Positions 12,375-18,590 of a stretch of DNA of 20,553 nucleotides are shown here, in pieces; positions within the stretch are counted from its first letter, which is position 1; the number at the start of each line of letters is the position of its first letter. The stretch covers positions 1 through 20,553 of IMG/VR virus record IMGVR_UViG_3300046170_000067, one strand, 5' to 3'. The notes beneath the pieces were generated by a model. The model worked only from the letters and a program-made list of their open reading frames with translations, did no database searches and was not told the DNA's origin. The position numbers were made by a program, and so were the translations under genes. This DNA comes from a virus.

Positions 12375-13805
12375 TTAAATCCATGACCTTAATTCTTCTC
12401 CTAAAACTTCTGATGCTATATTTATTTTTTTGCGTAGAGCTAGCACGATTTTTTCATCCACTGTATCGTCCGCCATTAAATCGACATAAGTTACCGATTT
12501 TTTTTGGCCGATCCTGTGTGCTCTGTCTTCTGATTGTAATCGCTTTTCTAAGTCATAACCATTAGAATAGTAAATTACGGTGTTTGCAGCTGTCAAAGTA
12601 ATGCCATAGCCGCCCGTAGAAGGCGTTCCAACAATAAACCGGCACTTAGGGTCATCTTGAAATTTCTTAATATTAGGTTGTCTTTGTTCTTGTGGTGTTA
12701 ATCCATAATAGTCGACAATGGACCCCGGACCATACTCTTTAGTAACAGCATCTATGATAGCTGTAATATCGTACTGATAGTGTGCCCAGATAATTGCCTT
12801 ACCTTCTGTTTCTTCTAATACATTCATCAATTCTGTAATTCTATTGTTAGCAATAGGTTGAACTGCACCATCGTCAGCTGTAAAATGACCACAAGTAATT
12901 TGTTGTAGTCGCATTAGTTGTGTCAAAGTATTTACAGTAGTAGATTGTTTGCCTTTTAATATAGCAATAGCTTCTTTCTTCATCTGTTCGTACAATTTAC
13001 GTTGATCTGGTGACAATTGTATTTGACGTTTAATAAATATTTTATCAGGAAGATCTAAACAATCCTCTTTTAATACACGATAAGAAAAATCTTTTAGTTT
13101 ATCAGATAACTCACCTAAGTTTTTAAAACCATTTACAACTTGTATCTGTCTACCATGCATGTGTAATGTTTTCATTTCTGCATATCTATTTCTGAACGCA
13201 TAATAAGATGTAAAGTTTAACAACCAGGGACTTAAAAAATCACACTGTGTAAATAAATCTAGTGGATTTTTAGTTACAGGAGAACCTGTCATAATTCTTC
13301 TATACTTAGCAGACTCACCTAGTTTAAGAATATTTTTTGTACGTTTAGCAGTAGGTGTTTTAATAGTAGTAGACTCATCAATAGCTACCATAGTTTCATG
13401 ACAAGATAAAAATTTTTTAGCAAACTCCATACCTTTAGTTGTACTAAAAGCTTCTACATTCATAATAAGAATGTGTAGTGATTCTTCTACTTCAAACAAA
13501 GATTCTAATTTTTCTTTTTGTTTTTTAGTAATATTAGATTGCCATAATACAGTTATATTTTCTATATGATTTGGTAAGTGTGTAGGTAGTTCGTTATTAT
13601 ACCAAGTACCAACCACACCTTTTGGTGCAATAATAAGAGCACCATTAACTTTACCTTTATCGTAAAGCATGGCAAGATTGTCTATTAATACTTTTGTTTT
13701 ACCTGTACCCATTTCCATAAAATAAGCAAAAGTTTCTCTGTTCCATGACTTTTCTAATGCAGTCATTTGATGTGCATACGGTTTTGTTTTAAATTTATAG
13801 TTCAT
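12375..13805 (-). CDS. SNF2-type DEAD/DEAH helicase (476 residues)
   Basis: I take the start at 13805 (MNYKFKTKPYAHQMTALEKS) with the purine-rich AGAAAGAAGAAAA just upstream. An alternative start 11 codons earlier would overlap the promoter. Motif I is MEMGTGKT (residues 30-37). Motif II is DEST (143-146) where DEAH or DEGH is usual. Motif III is TGSP (173-176). A motif V-like GTPSTGGYGITLTAANTV spans 393-410. Motif VI is QSEDRAHRIGQ (424-434). The RAHRIGQ block is typical of SNF2-family ATPases, which move along double-stranded DNA, and phages carry short forms of them. The frame is intact over 1.4 kb. It is the only leftward gene and faces the lysis genes with a 33-base gap. Transcription probably starts at the shared divergent promoter near 13822. 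Substrate and role (replication, recombination or host-defence interference) are not shown by the sequence. Confidence 0.92.
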   Translation of the reverse strand: MNYKFKTKPYAHQMTALEKSWNRETFAYFMEMGTGKTKVLIDNLAMLYDKGKVNGALIIAPKGVVGTWYNNELPTHLPNHIENITVLWQSNITKKQKEKLESLFEVEESLHILIMNVEAFSTTKGMEFAKKFLSCHETMVAIDESTTIKTPTAKRTKNILKLGESAKYRRIMTGSPVTKNPLDLFTQCDFLSPWLLNFTSYYAFRNRYAEMKTLHMHGRQIQVVNGFKNLGELSDKLKDFSYRVLKEDCLDLPDKIFIKRQIQLSPDQRKLYEQMKKEAIAILKGKQSTTVNTLTQLMRLQQITCGHFTADDGAVQPIANNRITELMNVLEETEGKAIIWAHYQYDITAIIDAVTKEYGPGSIVDYYGLTPQEQRQPNIKKFQDDPKCRFIVGTPSTGGYGITLTAANTVIYYSNGYDLEKRLQSEDRAHRIGQKKSVTYVDLMADDTVDEKIVLALRKKINIASEVLGEELRSWI

Positions 13806-13823
13806 AATTTTTCTTCTTTCTAC

Positions 13824-13852
13824 TTGACAAGATAACAACTCGAACCTATATT
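13824..13852 (+). promoter_or_regulatory. Sigma70-like promoter for the rightward replication module
   Basis: TTGACA (13824-13829), a 17-base spacer, and TATATT (13847-13852) match the consensus at six of six and five of six positions. The predicted transcription start is about 13858-13860, on or next to the A of the ATG at 13860. There is no Shine-Dalgarno sequence before that ATG. It is the only strong promoter ahead of the replication genes. Confidence 0.75.
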
Positions 13853-13857
13853 GTCAA
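13829..13857 (-). promoter_or_regulatory. Sigma70-like promoter for the leftward helicase
   Basis: On the minus strand TTGACA (plus-strand 13852-13857) is followed after 17 bases by TATCTT (plus-strand 13829-13834), six of six and four of six matches. Transcription would begin near 13822, giving a leader of roughly 17 bases with a purine-rich ribosome binding site before the helicase ATG at 13805. It overlaps the rightward promoter almost completely. Confidence 0.6.
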
Positions 13858-13859
13858 GC

Positions 13860-14254
13860 ATGAAAGAAAAAATTATTAGATACGGAGATATTAAAAATTC
13901 AGACCAACCTGTTGTACATGTTATTCAACATATTCCTGGAACAGCAGAAGGTAGACCTAAAATAAATATAATGGGTGCAGCGGAGTATGGAAAATTTAAA
14001 TTTTTACTTCCAGAACTTTCACAAATTATTTTTTCACCTGGTCCACTTATTTTTAAATTAAGAAAAGAATTAGCTAACTATAAAAAACAAGATTATTTAT
14101 TATTAACAGGTGATCCTGCAATTATTGGTGTAGCTTGTTCTATAGTTTCTGATATAACTAACGGCAAATACAACTATTAAAATGGGATAAACAAGAAAGA
14201 AAATATTATACCATTGCAATAGACTTATATGAAAGAGGAAAGATAGATGAGTAA
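13860..14254 (+). CDS. Hypothetical protein, first gene of the replication module (about 131 residues, one frameshift)
   Basis: The ATG at 13860 gives MKEKIIRYGDIKNSDQPVVH. The TTG nine bases earlier is rejected because it lies in the -10 region. The frame stops at 14180 after NGKYNY, but the next frame continues LKWDKQERKYYTIAIDLYER and GKIDE to a TAA at 14252-14254. One base missing near 14175 explains this and gives about 131 residues. The protein is mixed alpha/beta, with a hydrophobic segment IIFSPGPLIFKLRKEL and a LLLTGDPAIIGVACSIVSDI segment that reads like a buried strand-helix, not a membrane helix. I recognise no family. Being first under the promoter and apparently leaderless, it is probably an early protein. 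It overlaps the next gene by eight bases. Confidence 0.65.
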
Positions 14255-14801
14255 TATTGACTTTGAAAAAGACCAACAAGACCTTGTAGATAAAACTGCA
14301 AGTATACAATCTCTAGCAGATCAAATACAAATGTTAGAAGGATTAAATACTAGAATAGAAAAAAGTGAAAACAATCTAAAAGATTTAAAAAAAGAACATG
14401 ACCGATTATCTGGTGAGGTAATTCCAACTATGATGGCAGAGATGGGATTAGCTCATCTTAAATTATCAGATGGTTCTACGGTAGATGTTAAACCGAATTA
14501 TAGTGCAAGTATCTCTATTGCAAATAGAGAAAAAGCATTTACATGGCTTCGTGAAAATGGCTTGGGTGATATAATCAAAAATGAGATATCCGTATCATTC
14601 GGTCGTAACGAGGATAACAAGGCAGCTGATTATGCTGCTCTTGCAGAAGAGCGTGGGTATCAACCAACACAAAAGTTGAAGGTTGAGCCCATGACTCTCA
14701 AAGCGCTAGTCCGTGAGCGTTTAGAGGCAGGTAAATCAATGCCAACGGAAATTTTCAACGTGTTTGTTGGAAATAAGACAACAATAAAAAGGAACAAATA
14801 A
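14247..14801 (+). CDS. Coiled-coil hypothetical protein of the replication module (184 residues)
   Basis: The ATG at 14247 is preceded by GAAAGAGGAAAG, a good ribosome binding site lying in the end of the previous gene. Residues 1-60 are a long charged helix (LADQIQMLEGLNTRIEKSEN, then NLKDLKKEHDRLSGEVIPTM), very likely a coiled coil. Residues 65-120 form a compact beta-alpha region (MAEMGLAHLKLSDGSTVDVK, then REKAFTWLRENGLGDIIKNE). The C-terminal part is helical and basic (MTLKALVRERLEAGKSMPTE). I recognise no named family. The layout recalls Gp157-like phage recombination-associated proteins, and the next gene looks like an ssDNA-binding factor, so a role in recombination or replication is plausible but unproven. 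The frame is intact, and only two bases separate its stop from the next ATG. Confidence 0.75.
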   Translation: MSNIDFEKDQQDLVDKTASIQSLADQIQMLEGLNTRIEKSENNLKDLKKEHDRLSGEVIPTMMAEMGLAHLKLSDGSTVDVKPNYSASISIANREKAFTWLRENGLGDIIKNEISVSFGRNEDNKAADYAALAEERGYQPTQKLKVEPMTLKALVRERLEAGKSMPTEIFNVFVGNKTTIKRNK

Positions 14802-15610: not shown

Positions 15611-17101
15611 TTTGAAAAAATATTTAAAGGATTGGAACGTGCGCATGGTTGTACCAAGGTTACAGCACCAGCAGTAAATGGTGTTAAACTAAAAGGGACA
15701 ATCATTCGTAGTACGTCAACCAGTTACACGAGAACTGTGGAAGATGCACCTAGATGGTACGCAAAGTCTGGGCATCATACCTATTAACGAAGAAAATCAA
15801 TGTGTGTGGGGTTGTGTAGACATAGATTCTTACGCAGGGTTTGATCACAAAAAATTAATAGATAAGATAAAACAATTTAAACTGCCTTTGGCTGTGTGTA
15901 GGTCAAAGAGCGGAGGAGCACACGTCTTTCTCTTCTCCGAACAACCGGTAGCAGCAGAAAGAATGAGAGACAAACTAACGGAAATAAAAACACTACTAGG
16001 ATACGGCGGATCAGAAGTCTTTCCAAAACAAATACAATTAAAATCAGCAGATGACACAGGTAACTTTTTAAACCTACCATACTTTGGTGGTGAAGCAAAC
16101 AACACGTTATGCATTTAGAGAAGATGGAGAAGCTGCAACACTAGAAGAATTTTACACTACAGTACAGAGAGAATAAAACAATACAGACCTTGATTTTGTA
16201 AAAATAGAAAGACCACAATCAGAATACTCTGATGCACCACCGTGCATAGAACTTATGGCTATGAATAAAATACCAGAAGGTGGTCGTAACAATTCTATGT
16301 TTCATTTTGGTGTGTACGCTAAAAAGAAATGGCCTGCAGAATGGAAAAGTAAGATGACTTTGTTTAATGCAACAGCATCTACTGTACCACTAAGTGAGTC
16401 TGAAGTAGAAATAATTAAACGTCAACACGATAAAAAAGAATGGGGTTACAAAGTGTAATGATACGCCGATGTGTAACCTGTGTGATAAAAAATTATGTAG
16501 AGAAAGAAAGTTTGGTATTGGTGAAGAGATAGTGTTTCCTGCACTGACTGACTTACAAAAAATTAAATTAGAAAAACCATATTATTATCTTAACGTAGAT
16601 GGTGAACGACTACACCTGGAGAACGTAAAATTTTTAAAACAACAAAGTTTATTCCAGGAAGCATGCATGGAACAGTTGGATTTTAAACCACCAACAGTCA
16701 AACCAAAAGATTGGGACATGATAATAAACCCACTGATGAAGAACCACGAACCAATAGATCCACCAGAAGGTGTGACTACGCAGGATCAATTACAAAATCA
16801 TTTAGAAGAGTATTGTTTAAATAGGCAAGTATCTACAGATAAAAACGATCTTAAAAAAGGTGGTGTGTGGACCAGTGAAGGCAACCATCATTTTGTGTTT
16901 GATAGATTTTACAATCAGTTTTTAATTAGAAAACGTTGGGATGTACCATACTCACGTACAGCACAAATGTTAAAAGAAACATGTAACTGTGATGACAAAC
17001 GTATTGGTAGAGAAAGAATTTCTGTGTTTGTTGTAAAACAGTTTGACAAAAAAGAAGATGACTACAATCAAAAAGAATTAAAACCAAAGGATATATTTTG
17101 A
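15608..17101 (+). CDS. Archaeo-eukaryotic-type (AEP) primase, broken by several indels (about 496 residues)
   Basis: The gene begins MFEKIFKGLERAHGCTKVTA. Pieces join after removing an extra G at 15695-15697 (joint GQSFVVRQPVTRELWKMHLD), an extra T near 16107 (NNTYAFREDGEAATLEEFYT) and an extra G near 16453. An in-frame TAA at 16174 probably marks a small compensated error. AEP primase signatures are visible: motif I DID in GCVDIDSY (D71, D73), motif II SKSGGAHVFLF (S101-H105 as SGGAH), and GNFLNLP near residue 151. Downstream, C-x5-C-x2-C-x4-C (CNDTPMCNLCDKKLC, about 16454-16498) is a likely zinc site. The C-terminal 200 residues look like an accessory helical domain. The enzyme would lay primers for the PolA encoded 2 kb later. 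The stop overlaps the next gene's TTG. The metal-binding and SGGxH motifs make the family call firm; the exact subfamily is less sure. Confidence 0.8.
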
Positions 17102-18590
17102 GAACGATTGTACTAGGACCACCAGGTACAGGTAAGACTACAACTTTGTTAAACAAAGTAGATGACTATCTAAAACAAACAGACCCTGACAAGATAGGTT
17201 ACTTTGCATTTACACAGAAAGCTGCACACGAAGCAAGAGACAGAGCAATTAAAAAATTTAATTTAACAGAAGATGATCTACCATACTTTAGAACACTACA
17301 CTCACTAGCATTTAGAAAGTTAGGATTAAAAAAAGATCAAGTGATGCAGCCCAGACACTACAAAGATCTAGGTAAGAAGTTAGGTTTTCCTGTAACGTAC
17401 GCTGACTATCAAGAAGACCAAGGGTGGTATCTTTACATCAGACAGTGAGTATCTAAGAATCATACAACTAGCACAGCTACGAAACATTACACCAGAACAA
17501 CAGTTTGATTTACAAGAACACACACAAGACCTGGAGAGAGATCAACTTAGAATTATACACAACGAGTTAGCAAGATATAAAAAAGAATATAACTTAATAG
17601 ATTTTAATGACATGATTACAGAGTTTACAAAGTCAGATAAGTCTCCAAAGTTTGATGTAGTATTTATAGATGAAGCTCAGGATCTATCATTAATGCAATG
17701 GGACATGACACGATCTATTTGGAATAAAACAAAAGATTCTTTTATTGCAGGTGATGATGACCAAGCAATATTTAGATGGGCTGGTGCAGACGTAGATTCT
17801 TTTATAGCATTAGAAGGACAATACCTACCACTAACACAGTCTTACAGAATACCTGCTAAGGTACATGGACTAGCGATGGGTATAATAAATAAAATTAGAA
17901 ACAGAATAGATAAAGTCATGGCAACCTAGAGTTAGTCAAGGAAACTACACAGACATTTTGATATAGAAAGTATTGATATGTCAACAGGTGATTGGCTAGT
18001 ATTAAGTAGAACAAGACACATGCTGACAGACATAGAAGAATCTTTGTATAGACAAGGATTGTATTATGAAAACAGATACAAACGAAGCAGTGAAAAAGAA
18101 TTACACCAGGCAGCTACATCGTGGGAACATTTACGACAAGGACAGTTAGTGTCTTACAAAGAAATAGAAAACATGATTAAGTTTATAGGACCAAAACATT
18201 GGCACGCTAAAAAAATAAAAGGTATGGCTAAAGGATCTTTTTATGGAATAGATCAACTTGTAAAAGATTATGGTCTACAAGTTAAGACAGTTTGGTATGA
18301 AGCATTTGACAACGCAGGGCAGACTAAGGTAAACTACTAGCGTAAGATGAGAAAGAATGGTGAAAAACTAAACGAGAAAACCTAGAATTGAATTATCTAC
18401 TATACATGCAGCTAAAGGTGGTGAAGCAACTAACGTTGTACTATTAACAGATCTTACAGAAAATACTATGCGAAGTTATGAAAGAAATCCAGACGATGAG
18501 AATAGATTATTTTATGTAGGTGCAACAAGAACAAAAGAAAACTTACATATAATAGAACCAAAGAAATACGAAAAAGGATACTTACTATGA
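17098..18590 (+). CDS. UvrD/Rep-like SF1 DNA helicase, broken by several indels (about 496 residues)
   Basis: The start is a TTG at 17098 overlapping the primase TGA, followed at once by RTIVLGPPGTGKTTTLLNKV, so motif I (GPPGTGKT) lies almost at the N-terminus. Broken pieces join after removing an extra G at 17422-17424 (GGIFTSDSEYLRIIQLAQLR), an extra G near 17915, restoring a base near 17952, and removing an extra A at 18377-18380. An in-frame TAG stands at 18338. Further SF1A motifs are Q-like FTQKAA, II VVFIDEAQD, III GDDDQAIFRWAGAD, IV LTQSYRIP, V LSTIHAAKGGEATNV and VI LFYVGATRTKENLHI. The order and spacing are those of 3'-5' UvrD/PcrA-type helicases, but at about 500 residues it lacks most of their large accessory subdomains. 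It would unwind DNA for the primase and PolA. Its TGA overlaps the next ATG in an ATGA. Confidence 0.85.

Follow-up and report, generated by a model that had tools for sequence, protein, structure and literature searches.

Predicted opposed sigma70-type promoters interlocked in a short conserved palindrome between divergent genes of SAR11 phages

Divergent promoters lying in a short inverted repeat are familiar from bioA/bioB, tetA/tetR and argE/argCBH, where the repeats are repressor operators with extended symmetry. The first of these is counted among the bidirectional promoters (PMC12825309), a class described by Warman, Grainger and co-workers in which a pseudo-symmetric sigma70 element gives rise to divergent RNAs (PMC12825309, PMC10268837). 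Such elements often lie between divergent genes and share one central -10 box with the -35 boxes outside it; their starts are 7-25 bp apart (18 bp being the commonest distance), opposed polymerases exclude each other, and basal activity is low in those that were tested. Overlapping divergent core promoters that RNA polymerase cannot use together are also found in the control regions of the EcoRV and CfrBI restriction-modification systems, where the overlap is partial and a C protein exerts control (PMC5333194). In the CvkR/cas12k pair, two divergent genes are likely both translated from leaderless mRNAs; 82 nt separate their start codons, and a repressor of the MerR type binds in between (PMC9938897). 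For pelagiphages, a published time course of HTVC027P infection reports temporal clusters and no promoters (PMC12753301), and our literature search found no paper on pelagiphage promoters or leaderless mRNAs.

Here we describe an element of this general kind in a viral DNA of 20,553 nucleotides (IMG/VR record IMGVR_UViG_3300046170_000067; the whole stretch is hereafter the window), whose nearest phages are the cultured SAR11 phages of the HTVC023P type and phage 023Pt_psg01. At the junction between the helicase gene and the replication genes, a 34-base mirror-image element appears to hold two complete promoters in interlocked form (Table 1). It resembles the Warman/Grainger promoters in its pseudo-symmetry, its position between divergent genes and the exclusion expected of opposed polymerases, but in place of a shared -10 it has two separate near-consensus -10 boxes, each abutting the -35 of the other promoter, with predicted starts about 36-40 bp apart (39 bp in the window) and a predicted leaderless mRNA. 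Overlapping and bidirectional promoters being already known, the novelty lies in the separate interlocked -10 boxes, this distance between predicted starts and start codons at +1. As in the EcoRV and CfrBI regions, overlapping -35/-10 sets occupy both strands, firmly so where the arms span 33-34 bp and with a weaker leftward set at 35-38 bp; here, however, the overlap extends to 24 of the 29 bp of the core promoters, the arrangement is palindromic, and no regulator was found at the helicase locus, where the core is unconserved and the model of the adjacent first rightward product lacks a helix-turn-helix; one may be encoded elsewhere in the phage. A pair of leaderless mRNAs, as in CvkR/cas12k, is predicted only at a second locus, next to the terminase small subunit, and the start codons of the pelagiphage genes are closer together, at about 37-54 bp.

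Table 1. Features of the helicase/replication junction in the window
Feature	Position	Strand	Basis or remark
Interlocked inverted repeat	13823..13858	none	Extent in the original prediction; conserved part TTGACA...TGTCAA, 13824-13857
Rightward -35 hexamer TTGACA	13824..13829	+	Sequence and relatives
Rightward -10 hexamer TATATT	13847..13852	+	Spacer 17; invariant in 64/71 non-redundant relatives with arm spacing 33-34
Leftward -35 hexamer TTGACA	13852..13857	-	Sequence and relatives
Leftward -10 hexamer TATCTT	13829..13834	-	Spacer 17
Leftward extended -10 TGT	13835..13837	-	Restricted, among relatives, to elements with a suboptimal leftward -10
Predicted leftward transcription start, A	13821..13821	-	Geometry; 39 bp from the rightward start
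Predicted rightward transcription start, A of start codon	13860..13860	+	Geometry; TTGACA begins 36 nt upstream
SNF2-family helicase gene	12375..13805	-	ATG at 13805-13803
AGAAAG box, 5' end of predicted helicase leader	13816..13821	-	Shine-Dalgarno-like; leader 16 nt
First rightward gene, Pfam PF23992, Pam3_gp32-like, phrog_5888	13860..14180	+	No Shine-Dalgarno; 106 aa
Second rightward gene, PF23984 DUF7307, Pam3 gp33-like	14247..14801	+	With Shine-Dalgarno

Re-reading the sequence confirmed the inverted repeat of the original prediction, with arms CTTGACAA (13823-13830) and TTGTCAAG (13851-13858) around a 20-bp core, together with its face-to-face sigma70-type promoters, TTGACA-17-TATATT on the plus strand and TTGACA-17-TATCTT on the minus strand. 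The predicted overlap of the boxes amounts to exactly one base common to each -10 and the opposite-strand -35 (13829 and 13852). The plus-strand promoter matches the consensus at 11/12 positions and the minus-strand promoter at 10/12, the latter with the extended -10 in addition. A 7-nt discriminator follows each -10: GTCAAGC and then A13860 of the rightward ATG on the plus strand, GTCAAGT and then A13821, the leader AGAAAGAAGAAAAATT and the helicase ATG on the minus strand.

Within the window alone, the element is only marginally unlikely by chance. TTGACA-N18-28-TGTCAA occurs once against 0.05 expected, a fully overlapping opposed promoter pair of equal quality occurs once against a mean of 0.067 in Markov shuffles, and the promoter-like sites listed for the window number 85, where 78 would be expected. 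A fortuitous likeness in AT-rich DNA would agree with such figures, and the case is therefore carried by the relatives; with these added, conservation across about 200 related phage sequences and at several loci goes far beyond chance and rules this explanation out for practical purposes.

Using the products of the helicase gene and of the first rightward gene as protein queries, together with one motif search, we assembled 331 upstream sequences from relatives, 205 of them non-redundant. A subset of 103 non-redundant sequences was fetched by the helicase protein alone and is hence unbiased for the motif. TTGAC and GTCAA are both exact in 97 of these 103, compared with 14 of 10250 Markov shuffles, and the remaining relatives mostly have inserted or different sequence at the arm site. 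Measured across both arms, the element is 33-38 bp long, most often 34 or 37, and the helicase tree shows 12 changes of this spacing class, at least 9 of them on well-supported branches. At spacing 34 the core carries 0.1-1.4 bits of information per position versus about 2.0 for the hexamers and evidently drifts. The alignment of related phages that had been proposed as a check thus found both arms, the hexamers and the spacers conserved. At the helicase locus, TTGAC arms are absent in cultured HTVC027P and HTVC023P, and the freshwater phage DSL-LC04 (53% in the helicase) has no element. The HTVC027P sequence at this locus, although without TTGAC arms, keeps CTTTCTA..TATAAT..GAAAG, and an interlocked TTGAT/ATCAA version is present at the gp30/gp31 junction of the same phage (L082:15944-15983).

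The -10 boxes follow the arms on both strands, with unequal strength. For elements with spacing 33-34, a spacer of 16-17 bp gives the best -10 in 44/51 cases on the forward strand and in 39/51 on the reverse. Scored with an E. coli matrix, from which the SAR11 consensus may differ, 86% of forward and 39% of reverse -10 boxes in this class exceed 4 versus 9% in core shuffles, while at spacing 35-38 support persists for the forward -10 (44% score well versus 10% in shuffles) and the reverse one reaches 17% versus 10%, often with a best spacing of 19. At least 11 of 12 consensus positions are matched on both strands in 40 elements, and in three contigs (L298, L305 and L332) each strand has a 12/12 promoter with a spacer of 17 bp. 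The leftward promoter is further marked by its extended -10: TGn precedes 24 of the 26 leftward -10 boxes that differ from TATATT (TATCTT, TATGTT, TATTTT and others), and none of the 33 that are TATATT. The suboptimal group comprises six different hexamers, nearly all with TG, as would be expected of a functional extended -10. This state changes 11 times on the helicase tree, and 6/6 independent pairs on supported branches agree (sign test p 0.031), an independence that is approximate because intergenic cassettes may recombine and exchange of whole cassettes could inflate the TGn association. Such compensation speaks for a functional leftward promoter in the class to which the window belongs. 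On these sequence signals the leftward promoter is convincing only in that class and some others, being weaker at spacing 35-38.

This asymmetry raises the question of whether the rightward promoter alone is real, the right arm being kept for other reasons, such as a role as the start region of a leaderless mRNA, with the helicase expressed in some other way. The forward -10 is indeed supported in every class, the reverse one is weak at spacing 35-38, and the ATG lies inside the right arm in many relatives (TTGTCAATG). We nevertheless regard this as rather doubtful, given the reverse -10 at 17 bp and its TGn compensation at spacing 33-34, the perfect reverse promoters of the three contigs and the terminase locus, where both genes start at the predicted +1; moreover, hardly any sequence remains between the start codons for a separate helicase promoter.

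The relatives also define where the symmetry ends. The 8-bp arms are present in the window, but their outermost C:G is not a conserved pair, the base just outside the TTGAC/GTCAA arms being complementary in only 34/97 relatives, which indicates that the palindrome consists of the promoter boxes. This bears on the further suggestion that the repeat is a natural operator for a dimeric repressor. On that account a phage or host regulator would bind TTGAC/GTCAA half-sites and repress both genes, the promoter likeness being secondary; it could explain why conservation is highest in these half-sites, including in elements with a weak leftward -10, and a conserved core at the terminase locus would suit a regulator there. 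Against it, half-site spacing is variable rather than fixed, the repeat has no symmetry of its own past the hexamers, the core is free to vary at the helicase locus, start codons track the forward -35 and not the palindrome, extended -10 compensation is a promoter property, and the first rightward product has no helix-turn-helix in its model. Variable spacing and symmetry confined to the promoter hexamers also separate the element from bioA/bioB, tetA/tetR and argE/argCBH, and on these two grounds we reject an operator as the primary reading and consider it unlikely. The observation behind the original prediction is real, and its interpretation is partly supported.

The position of the rightward start codon, exactly at the predicted +1, was overlooked in the original prediction. 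Among the helicase-fetched relatives with an ATG near the right arm, the distance from this ATG to the forward -35 is 36 nt in 47/60 and 34-37 nt in 58/60, even though as many as five bases separate the shortest arm spacing from the longest; the offset of the ATG from the arm is correlated with arm spacing at -0.90 (sd 0.73 versus 2.25 permuted). The constancy of this distance despite the changes in spacing indicates that the gene start tracks the forward promoter, at +1. The start codon accordingly lies about 7 nt past the -10, and no Shine-Dalgarno sequence precedes it: pairing energy with a 16S tail is -0.8 kcal/mol, whereas the helicase gene and the two rightward genes that follow have values of -6.2 to -8.5. 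By this geometry the rightward mRNA should be leaderless. Short mRNA leaders are implied for the 023Pt_psg01 clade and for some others, in which the rightward start is displaced downstream by at least 10 nt.

Conserved boxes flank the arms on the outside, CTTTC directly left of the left arm in 94/97 relatives (expected 1) and GAAAG directly right of the right arm in 63/97 (expected 3). Since the outer box lengthens to AAAGGAGG in other contexts, it would most simply be read as a Shine-Dalgarno sequence. The GAAAG on the right (13862-13866 in the window) falls within the first rightward codons and is read in different frames between relatives; as a Shine-Dalgarno inside the rightward gene it makes no obvious sense.

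Among the flanking genes, the helicase had been taken as the only leftward gene, which holds inside the window, but complete relatives have others, such as the terminase small subunit. The first rightward product is shortened relative to the 118-135 aa of relatives, and one base seems to be missing at about 14173-14180, toward the end of its gene. Split open reading frames also occur at 192-2300, 15744-17101 and 17098-18340, and the window may be an indel-rich assembly. In more distant phages the second rightward gene stands first behind the element. An AlphaFold model of the first rightward product (window 13860-14180; relative L007:5554-5946) is an alpha/beta domain in which no helix-turn-helix was found, and an autorepressor role for this gene was discarded for that reason. 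In fold the model weakly resembles the CBASS Cap5 SAVED domain (E 3e-3, TM 0.50 on query) and CARF proteins; the product is a possible cyclic-nucleotide-binding counter-defence protein.

The same layout recurs elsewhere. Where a small gene diverges from that of the terminase small subunit, an interlocked element lies between the two in 56/57 distinct sequences (IMG/VR loci L457-L461 and L465-L544), always 34 bp long and with both ATGs 1-3 nt outside the arms, at the predicted +1. Its core is strongly conserved (TAGGATAGTTCCCTTAAA), unlike that at the helicase locus, so a regulator may bind at this locus. A further 15 distinct elements separate small divergent gene pairs in 29 contigs, several with Shine-Dalgarno sequences on both sides and two in contigs that also code for a helicase 64-65% identical to that of the window. 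These small-gene contexts (L142, L401, L416, L426, L446 and others) include unrelated proteins (..FVVLKIEE../..FIATWTPETINGQENMQ..), for which no relatives were found among 50,697 phage records. A DNA-processing site, whether recombinase core, origin or packaging site, would also place 6-8 bp arms around a variable core, superficially as here, and the element does abut replication genes. It is nonetheless very improbable that the element is such a site and no promoter: there are several per genome, lying in all contexts inspected where two genes diverge, spacing is variable, start codons are locked to promoter geometry, and neither -10 hexamers nor an extended -10 would be predicted.

As to the host, one phage contig in a Pelagibacteraceae single-cell assembly carries the helicase with its element and, in addition, a second such element, a direct host hint; both of the assembly's TTGACA-N21-26-TGTCAA matches lie on that contig. 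Use of the same design by SAR11 itself was discarded, as this pattern shows no enrichment in 60 Pelagibacteraceae genomes (18 forward matches, fewer than with a reversed-pattern control). In 257 Gb of genome contigs the motif has 35 matches, 34 of them without a helicase, which represents chance background.

Taken together, we favor mutually exclusive, interlocked divergent sigma70-type promoters as the best reading, with a probability of roughly 0.8. Each TTGACA would serve as the -35 of one promoter from within the discriminator just downstream of the other's -10. The host sigma70 polymerase is the likely user, given that the complete relative HTVC027P has no annotated RNA polymerase gene, which fits the earlier suggestion of a phage without its own enzyme, and that its time course was contrasted with that of a polymerase-encoding pelagiphage (PMC12753301). 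Opposed polymerases cannot occupy overlapping core promoters together (PMC12825309), and from these sterics and the 24-bp overlap we infer that simultaneous binding is excluded: polymerase would dock in one orientation at a time, and melting for one start would unwind the -35 of the other promoter. Rightward initiation at 13860 would yield the leaderless mRNA of the replication operon, and leftward initiation at about 13821 the helicase mRNA with its short leader. The palindrome would then be a by-product of packing two near-consensus promoters into 34-38 bp, and only secondarily, if at all, an operator for a repressor. At weak bidirectional promoters of E. coli no competition was found, but competition appears once one direction is strongly activated (PMC12825309), and the near-consensus boxes here lead us to predict it. 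A role as a balanced divider or regulatory switch is conjecture.

The element amounts to a promoter architecture that is defined at the level of sequence and whose start sites can be predicted; early mRNAs without leaders and strong competition between polymerases would be expected from it. In this it contrasts naturally with the bidirectional promoters of E. coli, in which the basal activity, where tested, does not suffice for competition. The motif could be used for promoter annotation and start-codon correction in uncultured pelagiphages. More tentatively, HTVC023P-type pelagiphages may possess, in interlocked promoters with zero or near-zero leaders, a phage-specific regulatory part placed at the helicase/replication, terminase small subunit and small-gene junctions. 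The whole intergenic space would in that case be one 34-38 bp either/or docking site that divides host polymerase between gene sets and times infection with no need of a repressor, leaderless translation being part of the design.
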